Assembly: GCF_029258575.1 (NCBI RefSeq)
Contig: NZ_JARHYI010000117.1
Location: forward strand, 1 to 60,184
Source: Brachyspira sp.
Lineage (GTDB): Bacteria; Spirochaetota; Brachyspiria; Brachyspirales; Brachyspiraceae
DNA length: 60,184 nucleotides
Direction of reading: 5' to 3'
This document shows, piece after piece, positions 49,286 to 54,880 of the stretch (positions are counted from its first letter, which is position 1; the number at the start of each line of letters is the position of its first letter). The notes below the pieces were generated by a model that was not told the origin of the DNA, made no database searches, and worked only from the letters and a program-made list of their open reading frames with translations. A program made the translations under genes and the position numbers.

Positions 49286-51031
49286 ATGAATGTTGATATA
49301 GGTAAATTTGCTGGATTTTGTGACGGTGTTAAATATGCCGTTGAAAATACTTTTTCTCAAGCTGCTAAAAATGACAGTGAAATATATATAGATGGACATT
49401 TAATTCATAATCCTCAAACTCTTAATATGTTGGAAAATATTGGTGTAAAAACATATGAAGATGATGAGGATATGTCTGTTTTGGATAATAAAACTGTTAT
49501 TGTAAGAGCTCATGGTATATCTCCAAAAAGAAGGGATGCTCTTTCTTCTCATGCCAAAAAAATAGTGAATCTTACCTGTAAATATGTAGCTAAAATTCAA
49601 GGTCTTGTAAAAAAACATAGTTCTTTAGGATATAGAATCATAGTGATAGGAAATCCAATGCATCCTGAAATAATAGGGGTTTGCGGATATGCTGATGATG
49701 TTTATGTTGTATATAAAGATGAAGATTTAAATGAACTTCCTGATGATTCTAAAAAAACTTTAATAGTAGCTCAAACCACATTACAAAAGTCTGTTTTTGA
49801 TAAATTTGTAAATCAAATAAAAGATAAATATAAAGATACTGAAATAATAATTAAAAATACTATTTGTATAGCTACTGAACAAAGACAAAATGAAATATTA
49901 GATATTGCTAAAAGAAATGATGTTGTTCTTGTTATAGGAGGCTCTGAAAGTTCTAATACAAGAAATTTATATAATATTGCCTCTGCCATTAAACCAGCTT
50001 TTTATGTTGAATATAAAGAAGATTTAGAAAATATAGATTTATCGAATTATAAAAATATTGGAATTATGGCTGGTGCTTCCACTCCTGATTGGCTGATAGA
50101 GGATGTAGCACAGACTATAAAGGATAAATATGCAAGTAATATAACTAGAATCTTTTCAAAAATATTCGATTTTCTTAATTATGGTTATATTTTCTTTTCT
50201 GTAGGTGCTTTTTTAATGTCATATGCCATATATGATATATTATCACAGCCTTTTCAGTATAAAATTGGTATTATAACTGCATTATATTATTTGTATATGA
50301 GTTTGGGAAATGGATACAGTAATTATACTATTAGAATAAGTGATTATAGAAGATATTTATTCTATCAAACTAATAAAATATTTTTTATTTCATTGATGGT
50401 GGTAAGTGCTTTATTGATGTTTTATTTTGCTTATAAGGTTGATATTGGTATATTAATGCTTTCTATACTATCAAGTTTACTTGGGGTAGGGTATAATATT
50501 AGCTTTGAAAATAAATCTAGATTTGAATCTTCATTTTTCTTTAGATTGTTTAAAAAGCTTATACCATTCAAAGCAATAGTGATATCAGTTGCAGTTGTTG
50601 TATTGTTAAATGGTTCTATATTTATTATGCATAGAGATATATTCAGCAGAAATCCGTTTTTATATTTATTTTCTACTAGCATAGTATTTTTGTTCATGTT
50701 TATAAGACAAGCTTTGATAGAAATAAAATTTTCTCAAAGTGATAAAATAGCAGGGGCAGTAACTTTGACAACATATATAGATTCTCATAAATTAGCTATT
50801 ATTACAGGTATAATACCCATTATATTGGCTTTATTTATGGTAGTTGGTATTATTATAGATAAGTTTTATTTAGAAATCGATAAATTAAAATATTTTGTTC
50901 CTATTATATACAGTAGCATTATATCATTTGTTGTTATGAAGAAGAAAATAATAACTAGCAGACATTTGTTTTCAATTTTAATAGATTCTCCTCTTTATGT
51001 ATTATTTTTAGCGGCATTAATTAATATTTAA
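49286..51031 (+). CDS. ispH: IspH fused to a nine-helix UbiA-like membrane domain
   Basis: Residues 1-285 are a full IspH (4-hydroxy-3-methylbut-2-enyl diphosphate reductase). Cluster ligands are C12, C98 and C194; substrate residues are H41, H76, H126 and E128 (HPE), T164/T165, S222/N224 and S265. It makes IPP and DMAPP in the MEP pathway. Residues 295-581 contain about nine transmembrane helices. Two segments fall where UbiA prenyltransferases carry their Asp-rich motifs: NGYSNYTIRISD (342-353), and RQALIEIKFSQSDKIAGAVTL (474-494), here abbreviated as QSDKIAGAVTL. Several Asp are replaced, so catalysis is uncertain. Free-standing IspH is about 300 residues, so this is a true fusion. Confidence 0.88.
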   Translation: MNVDIGKFAGFCDGVKYAVENTFSQAAKNDSEIYIDGHLIHNPQTLNMLENIGVKTYEDDEDMSVLDNKTVIVRAHGISPKRRDALSSHAKKIVNLTCKYVAKIQGLVKKHSSLGYRIIVIGNPMHPEIIGVCGYADDVYVVYKDEDLNELPDDSKKTLIVAQTTLQKSVFDKFVNQIKDKYKDTEIIIKNTICIATEQRQNEILDIAKRNDVVLVIGGSESSNTRNLYNIASAIKPAFYVEYKEDLENIDLSNYKNIGIMAGASTPDWLIEDVAQTIKDKYASNITRIFSKIFDFLNYGYIFFSVGAFLMSYAIYDILSQPFQYKIGIITALYYLYMSLGNGYSNYTIRISDYRRYLFYQTNKIFFISLMVVSALLMFYFAYKVDIGILMLSILSSLLGVGYNISFENKSRFESSFFFRLFKKLIPFKAIVISVAVVVLLNGSIFIMHRDIFSRNPFLYLFSTSIVFLFMFIRQALIEIKFSQSDKIAGAVTLTTYIDSHKLAIITGIIPIILALFMVVGIIIDKFYLEIDKLKYFVPIIYSSIISFVVMKKKIITSRHLFSILIDSPLYVLFLAALINI

Positions 51032-51108: not shown

Positions 51109-51912
51109 TTAATTTTTTTTCATAAATAATGAAGAAGATGAACCAGCAAGATGATGTCTTCTTAAATCTATAAGTTCGAATATTGTAGCAGAAGATAAAC
51201 TTTCTCTTAAAGCTTTAGGAGATTTTAGTAATTTAATAATCTCTTCATTAACCATCCATTCTTCATCATAAACATTACTCATAGAATCTCTAGGTGCATA
51301 AATCATATTACTTCTAGCCAATACTATAAATCTATTATTTTCATCATAATATCCTAATTCACCTATAAAGTAAGCATGAGGCATAGCTAGATTAACATAT
51401 CTATCACCATAAATGTAATTTACTTCTATTTCTTTATGGATTTCGCCGTTAGTTATATCATAACCAAATACATGGAATATTCTAACTGATATTCTTTTTC
51501 CTTTTAAAGAGTGGTAATTTATATCATCATCAGATATATCCCAATAGAAAAAACACCATTCAGGATCACGCATCATCAGTACTAATTTAGTTTCATTGTA
51601 TCTATCAGGTAATTCTCTGACTATATCTACTTCATCAGGTATATATTTAGGCTCTTGTACTTCTTCTATTTCTTCTACTTTTTCTACATCTTTAACTTCT
51701 TTTTCAACTTTTTTCTTTGATGATACTTTTTTAGTTGTAGTTTTTTTAGCAGTAGTTGAAGTTGTTTTTTTACCAGCTGCAGATTTTACTGAAGCTTTTT
51801 TGGTTGTACTGCTTGATTTTTCTTCTACATCTTTTTTATCAGCTGCAGATTTTTTAGCGGGGGTTTTTTTAGTGCTTTTTTCAGCTGCTTTTTCTGTTTT
51901 TTTAGTAGCCAT
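51109..51912 (-). CDS. DUF4912 protein with Lys/Thr/Ala-rich N-terminus
   Basis: The product of about 267 residues starts MATKKTEKAAEKS and has a highly basic, low-complexity N-terminus (residues 1-75) like histone H1-like tails. A DUF4912 domain follows (about 100-260) with ELPDRYNETKLVLMMRDPEW, the family marker LPxxYxxxxLVLMxRDPxW, and FFYWDIS. The function is unknown; the tail may bind nucleic acid. I place the start at 51912 because GGAG lies seven bases before it, not at the ATG ten codons earlier. Confidence 0.75.
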   Translation of the reverse strand: MATKKTEKAAEKSTKKTPAKKSAADKKDVEEKSSSTTKKASVKSAAGKKTTSTTAKKTTTKKVSSKKKVEKEVKDVEKVEEIEEVQEPKYIPDEVDIVRELPDRYNETKLVLMMRDPEWCFFYWDISDDDINYHSLKGKRISVRIFHVFGYDITNGEIHKEIEVNYIYGDRYVNLAMPHAYFIGELGYYDENNRFIVLARSNMIYAPRDSMSNVYDEEWMVNEEIIKLLKSPKALRESLSSATIFELIDLRRHHLAGSSSSLFMKKN

Positions 51913-52096
51913 TAAATATCTCCATAAACTTATATTTTTCAAAAAATATTATAGAATAAATACTTTTATTGTCAACAATTAAATTTAGTTTTTTACTTTT
52001 TTAGTTTTACTAGATTTTAATTATGACGATAATAAATAAGATTGAAAAAATTTTATATATTATGTATATTTATTTTTATATGATATAGGAGATAAA

Positions 52097-52809: not shown

Positions 52810-54486
52810 CTATTTTTTCTTAATATACTTCTTTATAAATCTACTTATAATCATAATAAAACCCATTATAGCCGATACTCCAAAACCTACCATTCCTATA
52901 ACAGATGTTCCATGAAATAGGGGAGGAATATTACTTGTTATTATCAAAGCACTAGCCATAATCAATGAAGCTAGAACTATAGAATAGCTTAATCTATCAG
53001 CTAAAGCATCCAAAGTATTGGATAATGATTCCAATTTTCTATGTTCAAGCTGAATTTTCATGCCTCCTTTTTTTATAACAGTAAGTAAATCTCCTATATC
53101 TGTTGGAAGTTCTTTTAATATGCCAGTATAATCATAAAATAATTTTTTGAACTGTTTAAATAAATTATTAGGCTTCATCTGTTCTCTTACATATTTGAAA
53201 GCAAAAGGTTTAATATGTTCTATCAGCTTTACATCTTTATCCAAATTTCTAGCAACACCCTCAAGTACTATCAAAGATTTGATTAAAAGCATAATATTGC
53301 TAGGTAAAGTTAATCTAAATTCTCTTATTATATAAATAAGCTCATTGAATACATCTTCTATATTAATATTATCTAAAGGCATATCAACATATTTGCTTAC
53401 TAGAACAAATATTGCCATATTAAATTCATCCATATTTTTTATTTCAGCATGATAACATAAATCAAGTATTGCCTTTGATAATTCTAAATAATCACCAGAA
53501 CTGATACTCATGATTATAGAAGAAAATGCTTCTTTAGAATTTGGAGGAATAAACCCTATCATACCGAAATCTAAAAAACATAAAACATTATTTTCTAAAG
53601 CCATCAAATTTCCTGGATGAGGATCAGCATGAAAAAATCCAAGCATAAATATTTGTTCTAATACAGAATCAATACCTATAGATACAAGTTTTTTTCTATC
53701 ATATTTTTCATCATCAGGCGATATATCAGATATTTTTATGCCTTCTATATATTCCATAGTCAATATACTTTTTGTACTGTATTCTTCATATATTTTTGCT
53801 ATTTTTATATTTTTATTATTTTTAAAATATCTTGCAAATTTGAGAGTGTTATTCTTTTCAAAATTGAAATCCAATTCCTGCAAAAGCTGTGCTTTAAAAG
53901 CTGTTATTAATTTCTGAGGCTGCATTAAAACAAATTCCTCATTATACTTTTCTATGATATTTGAAAGCCATGTAATAACCTCTATATCCATAAGTATATT
54001 TTCTTCTATGTTAGGTCTTTTTACTTTAACAGCAACTTTTTCTCCATTTTTTAATACACCAGTATGAACCTGAGAAATAGAAGCACTAGCTTTTGGTTTT
54101 ACATCAAATGTTTCAAAAATTTCATCTATTTTTTTACCTAGATCTGTTTCTATAATATTGATAGCCTCTTTTTCATCAAAAGGCTTTACATGATTTTGAA
54201 GTTTACTAAGTTCATCTATTATATCTCTAGGTAATATATCATTTCTATTAGATAATATTTGTCCTAGTTTGATAAAAGTAGTACCTAAATCTTCGCAGGC
54301 CATTCTAATTCTTTCGCCTCTGCTGTATTTACGCAAATCAATACCATTATGTTTTATATTAATTTTGTCTATTGGATTTTTTATTATTTTCAATATTGGT
54401 GTTATAGATATAATATCTCTGAAACCATAGGATATTATTATAGAAATTATTTCTCTAGCCCTGTTTATAAATTTCATGTTATTCAT
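52810..54486 (-). CDS. ABC1/UbiB family protein kinase-like protein
   Basis: The 558-residue protein belongs to the ABC1/AarF/UbiB atypical kinase family. It carries TTFIKLGQILSNRNDILP with the KxGQ motif, ASASISQVH in the Ala-rich loop, VAVKVKRPNI with the conserved Lys, FHADPHPGNL (catalytic Asp) and LDFGMIG (DFG). Two transmembrane helices at the C-terminus (about 501-519 and 525-549) anchor it. UbiB proteins support quinone or isoprenoid-lipid synthesis by ATPase activity. It is just upstream of nothing else on this strand, converging on the tRNA; the phasin-like gene lies upstream. Confidence 0.87.
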   Translation of the reverse strand: MNNMKFINRAREIISIIISYGFRDIISITPILKIIKNPIDKINIKHNGIDLRKYSRGERIRMACEDLGTTFIKLGQILSNRNDILPRDIIDELSKLQNHVKPFDEKEAINIIETDLGKKIDEIFETFDVKPKASASISQVHTGVLKNGEKVAVKVKRPNIEENILMDIEVITWLSNIIEKYNEEFVLMQPQKLITAFKAQLLQELDFNFEKNNTLKFARYFKNNKNIKIAKIYEEYSTKSILTMEYIEGIKISDISPDDEKYDRKKLVSIGIDSVLEQIFMLGFFHADPHPGNLMALENNVLCFLDFGMIGFIPPNSKEAFSSIIMSISSGDYLELSKAILDLCYHAEIKNMDEFNMAIFVLVSKYVDMPLDNINIEDVFNELIYIIREFRLTLPSNIMLLIKSLIVLEGVARNLDKDVKLIEHIKPFAFKYVREQMKPNNLFKQFKKLFYDYTGILKELPTDIGDLLTVIKKGGMKIQLEHRKLESLSNTLDALADRLSYSIVLASLIMASALIITSNIPPLFHGTSVIGMVGFGVSAIMGFIMIISRFIKKYIKKK

Positions 54487-54568: not shown

Positions 54569-54880
54569 TTATTGCTTATTCTTTTGCAAAGATTCTTTTA
54601 ATTCTTCTAATTCTTTTCTCATAGAGTCGTATTCTTCTTTTCTTACATAGCCAATTTTATCAATAGCTTTTTTTACTCTCTCATCTATGAATTGAGTTAC
54701 TTCATCTTTAGTTTCAGAAGCTTTGCTTACCATATCCTTTACAAATTTTTCTCCCTCTTCAGCACTTACATTTTTATCTTTAATAAATTCGCGTGCAGCT
54801 TCTTCTAATTTCTCTTTACCTTTAAGCATCATTCCAATGCCTGAATAAAATCCTGATTTAATATCGTCTGATAATGACAT
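54569..54880 (-). CDS. Phasin-like coiled-coil protein
   Basis: The 103-residue amphipathic helical protein contains FYSGIGMMLKGKEKLEEAAR, a patch of Lys/Glu heptads and a C-terminal RKEEYDSMRKELEELKESL coiled coil, as in small phasin-family proteins. It lies 82 bases upstream of the ABC1 kinase gene on the same strand. Such pairs (phasin-like next to AarF/UbiB) occur in other anaerobes, which suggests a functional link. AAGGGGG precedes the ATG. Confidence 0.7.
   Translation of the reverse strand: MSLSDDIKSGFYSGIGMMLKGKEKLEEAAREFIKDKNVSAEEGEKFVKDMVSKASETKDEVTQFIDERVKKAIDKIGYVRKEEYDSMRKELEELKESLQKNKQ

Follow-up and report, generated by a model that had tools for sequence, protein, structure and literature searches.

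The window, a 60,184-nt stretch of Brachyspira DNA, encodes an IspH whose reading frame runs on into a UbiA-like membrane domain. We give an even chance to the reading that this protein is an IspH docked at the membrane, with a UbiA-fold half that probably serves as a degenerate ligand-binding anchor and not as a standard prenyltransferase. Its components differ in strength: docking of IspH at the membrane is very likely; that Brachyspirales have lost standard prenyltransferase chemistry is, from the residues, probable; and ligand sensing by the membrane half, which the retained pocket would permit, is a guess. IspH is the final enzyme of isoprenoid-precursor synthesis, normally soluble and a drug target.

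The fusion gene, its spread and its descent

The whole fusion gene (49286..51031, + strand) is a single uninterrupted ORF of 581 codons plus stop. Its IspH (LytB) domain, residues 1-282 (49286..50131, +), is present over the full length of the Pfam profile (LYTB, PF02401; residues 7-279, E 8.9e-79, profile positions 5-267 of 267) and scores 257 bits against TIGR00216, where the cut-off is 187.85. The three cluster cysteines (C12, C98, C194) and the substrate-site residues H41, H76, H126, E128, T165, S222, S223, N224 and S265 are all in place and invariant in a 16-row full-length alignment, bearing out the preliminary description of a full-length IspH with complete cluster and substrate residues; we take these positions to be equivalent to those of Escherichia coli IspH. 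The IspH half of the structural model aligns with E. coli IspH (3szu) at Z 31.2 over 278 residues, with 28% identity.

A profile of the C-terminal domain matches 65 of 296 Spirochaetota genomes, in 26 of 138 genera, and its scan of genome contigs gave matches in spirochaetes only; the domain of genome G201, used as query against viral contigs, found no relative there. Open frames of 438-662 aa contain the domain in 63 of these genomes; in the remaining two (G138 and G194) the frame breaks at contig ends. None of the 65 showed the domain apart from IspH, which was itself found in 233 of 292 genomes. Fusion-length open frames containing the domain occur in all 26 genomes of the window's genus, and the fusion extends to nine further families. 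The window's own genome is a 2.66-Mb assembly in 155 contigs (99.26% complete). The suspicion that an assembly or annotation error had merged two genes, raised as a check in the preliminary description, is refuted by this recurrence across families and throughout the genus, where three of the fused genomes (G007, G016, G019) are listed as one contig; we give it virtually no chance.

In a quick IspH tree of 64 rows, all 42 fused rows group together with the unfused IspH of G074, with weak support (84). A more careful tree of the IspH domain, from which four long-branch unfused rows (L137, L139, L140, L152) were dropped, clusters 41 fused rows with G074 (93/89) and places G201 (L119) apart, and a single clade for all fused rows is not rejected (AU p 0.359). 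The contig that carries the G201 fusion is 6,175 bases long, in a genome of roughly 670 contigs, and could be misbinned. Both trees omit the fused loci L087, L100, L111 and L112, which are truncated or interrupted, and L116, which duplicates the window. Distribution and IspH-domain tree together suggest that the fusion is old and has been inherited mostly vertically within Spirochaetota. Genome G036 has two IspH proteins (loci L115 and L142): one is fused and Brachyspirales-like, the other is unfused and belongs to a different clade.

G074 belongs to the same family as Brachyspira and to the same genus as G066, which has the fusion. Its retained IspH (L117:3920-4849) ends at the domain junction, the whole UbiA-fold domain having been cleanly lost, and at the profile's sensitivity the domain was detected nowhere else in that genome. 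The surroundings are intact: rpmB lies upstream, and the ispH stop overlaps by four bases a downstream DUF4912-type gene, the gene type that also follows the window fusion. The IspH half is therefore able to exist by itself, and so clean a loss marks the domain as dispensable there and speaks against a vital sensor role. Among 15 Brachyspira rows, median omega (NG86; pairs with dS between 0 and 1) was 0.082 for IspH (63 of 105 pairs) and 0.103 for the membrane domain (40 of 105 pairs), and the latter is under purifying selection and not decaying. In the most distant Brachyspira row, identity is 0.47 in the membrane half versus 0.79 in IspH.

Fold and active-site residues of the membrane domain

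The C-terminal domain spans residues 283-581 (50132..51028, +). In the AlphaFold2 full-length model (16 rows; pLDDT 87.4, pTM 0.79) it forms nine helices, at 302-318, 325-345, 364-385, 387-405, 417-448, 457-481, 500-523, 531-550 and 559-578, in agreement with the nine-helix membrane domain that had been described in frame behind IspH; the domain was also modelled alone (18 rows; pLDDT 84.9, pTM 0.84). Comparison of a predicted structure with UbiA had been set beforehand as a test that could overturn the assignment, and it returned a UbiA fold. With VIA-align, the C-domain model matches 4od5 at Z 17.4 over 255 of 274 residues (rmsd 3.5, 10% identity), the top structures being 4od5, 4od4, 4tq4 and 4tq3 (Z 16.5-17.4; 16.7 for 4tq4), and the C-terminal half of the full-length model gives Z 17.1 against 4od5. 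Soluble trans-prenyl (farnesyl/geranylgeranyl) synthases rank next, up to Z 13.8, a score also given by 7bpu. The best 12 Foldseek rows against the PDB are all UbiA-superfamily members (probability 0.99-1.00), with a modest best E of 8e-3. On these models the membrane half is predicted to have the UbiA fold.

Sequence evidence from the relatives agrees: 33 of 44 match the Pfam UbiA family PF01040 at E<=0.01 (best 7.9e-10), and the G126 domain stands above the PF01040 cut-off in the whole-genome search, at 38.6 bits. The window domain, scanned alone, has no match at E<=1 in NCBIfam or in Pfam, PF01040 included. The only three matches of the C-domain profile to PDB sequences at E<=10 are all UbiA-superfamily, with weak E-values of 0.02, 0.02 and 0.44. 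A profile-profile alignment to 12 canonical UbiAs of spirochaetes speaks against this: it is weak (probability 41.9), has the motifs out of register and was not relied on. An IspH-S1 fusion was excluded, as there is no S1 repeat match and NF000907 covers the IspH part alone (1-280 of 671).

Residues were tallied over 44 aligned C-domains (mean column identity 39%) and read against AfUbiA positions. According to the available text of PMC4106721, AfUbiA N68, D72, D198 and D202 hold two Mg ions, R22 and K146 contact the diphosphate, and N68, Y139 and S140 flank the cleaved bond; GPP binding is abolished in N68A, D72A, R22A and K146A and weakened 45- and 21-fold in D198A and D202A, respectively, and EcMenA mutants equivalent to N68 and D72 lose function. 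UbiA-like segments are found at both motif sites, as the preliminary description had it, and its remark that the Asp residues are partly replaced holds at the D72 and D198 positions.

The first motif, aligned with the AfUbiA N68 and D72 positions in the 44 relatives, is N342-G-Y-S-N346 (50309..50323, +) and degenerate: it departs from NxxxDxxxD in having Asn at the D72 position and no Asp at the D76 position. Brachyspirales read NGYSN or NNYTN here, keeping the Asn at the N68 position (43 of the 44 rows) and replacing the Mg-binding Asp with Asn. Across the family the D72 position holds Glu (13), Asn (11), Asp (10), Leu (3), Thr (3) and Met, Arg and Gln (1 each), the remainder being gaps, so that it is non-acidic in 21 of 44 rows; all 11 rows with Asn belong to Brachyspirales and G036, and 23 of the 33 non-Brachyspirales rows retain an acid. 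Asp at the D76 position occurs in 0/44 rows when motif 1 is taken as printed. The active-site Tyr is present: Y403 (50492..50494, +), placed by alignment and by the HMMER register to the 'G-x-x-Y-S' of 4tq3, is the counterpart of Y139 and is Tyr in 43 of 44.

In the second motif, R474...E479...D486...G490 (50705..50755, +), the alignment of relatives equates D486 with AfUbiA D202, and this Asp is invariant (44/44). The D198 position is Asp in 2/44 and Phe482 in the window (position -4), leaving no DxxxD there, and an acid stands seven residues ahead of the D202 position in 41/44 (E479 in the window), a -7/0 arrangement shared by chlorophyll synthase. R474 and G490 are conserved in every row and K429 in 41 of 44; judging from this conservation, the family-specific Lys and Arg might replace the diphosphate contacts. 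Placement of the R22 counterpart (Tyr in Brachyspira) and of the K146 counterpart is uncertain.

Gene neighbourhood and cell context

The gene rpmB (ribosomal protein L28; 49067..49258, +; Ribosomal_L28 E 1.1e-19) ends 27 bp upstream of ispH, and all 31 Brachyspirales genomes examined, among them G074, have it just ahead of ispH; it is likely co-transcribed with the fusion gene. The ribosome-IspH link thus recurs in another form, rpmB lying beside ispH here and S1 being fused to IspH elsewhere. Downstream lies a gene for a DUF4912 protein whose long N-terminus is rich in Lys, Ser and Thr (51109-51942, -), found beside ispH in Brachyspiraceae loci, bar L078 and one locus that ends at a contig end. 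The UbiB-like kinase gene that had been pointed out nearby is real (52810-54486, -; ABC1 E 8.5e-73), but it is on the opposite strand, and the two genes do not stay close in all loci: among the 12 of the loci L061-L077 with enough downstream sequence (five others are too short), 8 from Brachyspira have it no more than 6 kb away, and L073, L075, L076 and L077 lack it there. A functional link to the fusion as a general feature was dropped. The UbiB-like gene, which adjoins a gene for a phasin-like protein (54569-54880, -; PF05597 E 4e-10), occurs in a genome without a recognisable quinone-type UbiA enzyme.

In most loci outside Brachyspirales, the fusion comes after a PilM-like gene and two further genes conserved with it, and shikimate-dehydrogenase or PdxJ/CdaA genes adjoin the locus; these labels rest on six scanned proteins, of which L083:2029-3126 had no match, and PilM_2 alone is confirmed in the trio. 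The trio may, we presume, be the type II secretion genes gspL/M/N. No prenyl-related neighbours were seen outside Brachyspirales except in G201 (L119:1380-4152), where a polyprenyl-diphosphate synthase gene lies directly upstream of the fusion and the second motif is an intact DxxxD. With nothing else prenyl-related in the neighbourhoods, gene context was discarded as a functional clue.

The window's genome encodes IspG and one polyprenyl-diphosphate synthase, and a search that detected all 14 controls found no canonical UbiA in it. In all 29 Brachyspiraceae genomes searched there was no UbiA match above the cut-off, and a quinone role in Brachyspira is therefore unlikely, as far as gene content can tell. 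Canonical UbiA genes number two in G025 and one in G026, both of the sister family; G036 additionally encodes three.

Proposed function and relation to known systems

The N-terminal half would be an ordinary [4Fe-4S] HMBPP reductase yielding IPP and DMAPP, given its complete residues and fold, and the C-terminal half, with its predicted fold and topology, would hold the enzyme at the cytoplasmic side of the inner membrane. In Brachyspirales the membrane half has probably ceased to be a standard Mg-dependent prenyltransferase, since the D72 position is Asn, D76 is gone and AfUbiA D72A cannot bind GPP. Because a conserved pocket (N342, Y403, K429, R474, E479, D486) survives the broken metal site, we propose that it binds a prenyl diphosphate or polyprenyl phosphate without turnover, and the ligand-bound domain might then place IspH beside, or tune it to, membrane isoprenoid use. 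A bolder version, which we consider unlikely, is that the Brachyspirales UbiA has turned into a pseudoenzyme on IspH, a membrane receptor that senses the polyprenyl carrier or diphosphate and docks or adjusts IspH, coupling supply to the demand for cell-wall carrier lipid.

An active bifunctional enzyme, the view of Rao et al. 2015, would have IspH feed DMAPP and IPP locally to a UbiA-like half that prenylates some acceptor, perhaps with an unusual metal site. The predicted UbiA fold, the purifying selection on the membrane half and the second motif of chlorophyll-synthase type all agree with it; the retained N342, Y403 and D486 and the acid at -7 would equally suit an active enzyme, and in G201 the upstream polyprenyl-diphosphate synthase gene accompanies a fusion whose DxxxD is whole. 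An acid still occupies the D72 position in 23 of the 33 rows from outside Brachyspirales, so the family at large may be active, and an Asn at this site is perhaps tolerated. For Brachyspirales we nevertheless hold this view somewhat unlikely: the D72 position is Asn, the Asp at D76 is lost, and loss of function in the EcMenA mutants at N68 and D72 equivalents (PMC4106721, available text) counts against it, as do the single polyprenyl synthase of the window's genome and the lack of any visible acceptor pathway or other UbiA in the 29 Brachyspiraceae genomes.

The opposite extreme, in which the UbiA-fold half is a mere membrane tether and its pocket has no ligand role, fits the persistence of G074 IspH without the domain, the degenerate first motif and the faster fall of identity in the membrane half (0.47 against 0.79 in the most distant Brachyspira row). 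We judge it quite improbable: the pocket residues are nearly invariant in the 44 rows despite the low mean column identity, and a tether has no need of an invariant R474, D486 and G490.

Under the reading of a membrane-docked IspH with a degenerate anchor, this genus of gut spirochaetes as a whole appears to have IspH solely in membrane-bound form. Natural contrasts within the lineage, an acidic first motif versus one with Asn and a domain kept in G066 and lost in G074, open the ten-year-old question of the function of IspH-UbiA fusions to testing. If the pseudoenzyme proposal is true, serving as an isoprenoid receptor would be a novel task for the UbiA fold; the literature searched yielded no paper pairing 'UbiA' with 'pseudoenzyme'.

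The preliminary description knew of no IspH-UbiA fusion, a claim that falls, since the available text of Rao et al. 2015 (PMC4746011) describes 47, primarily from Desulfobacterales and with two DXXXD sites; it suggests membrane localisation with local IPP/DMAPP supply and leaves the function of the fusions unknown. Neither 'Brachyspira' nor 'spirochaet' appears in the main text of that paper, and the literature searched contained no report of spirochaete IspH-UbiA fusions. The fusion itself is therefore known, and the spirochaete branch is, on these grounds, new and partly degenerate. Compared with the published description only, and with the available part of it, our protein resembles the Desulfobacterales fusions in its N-terminal IspH, its nine-helix UbiA-like C-terminal domain and its anaerobic host; it differs in the spirochaete host, the broken first motif and the shifted second one, and lacks the two DXXXD sites. 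With the UbiA superfamily (ApUbiA 4od5, AfUbiA 4tq3, DGGGP synthase 7bpu, chlorophyll synthase 9sau) it shares the fold, the Asn, the Tyr and one Asp, and in the second motif it resembles chlorophyll synthase; unlike the superfamily, with which identity is about 10%, it lacks NxxxDxxxD and sits behind IspH. The IspH-RPS1 fusions, as covered in the available text of Rao et al. 2015 (PMC4746011), are likewise long IspH proteins of anaerobes with a C-terminal extension, which in the window protein is a membrane domain with no S1 repeat.
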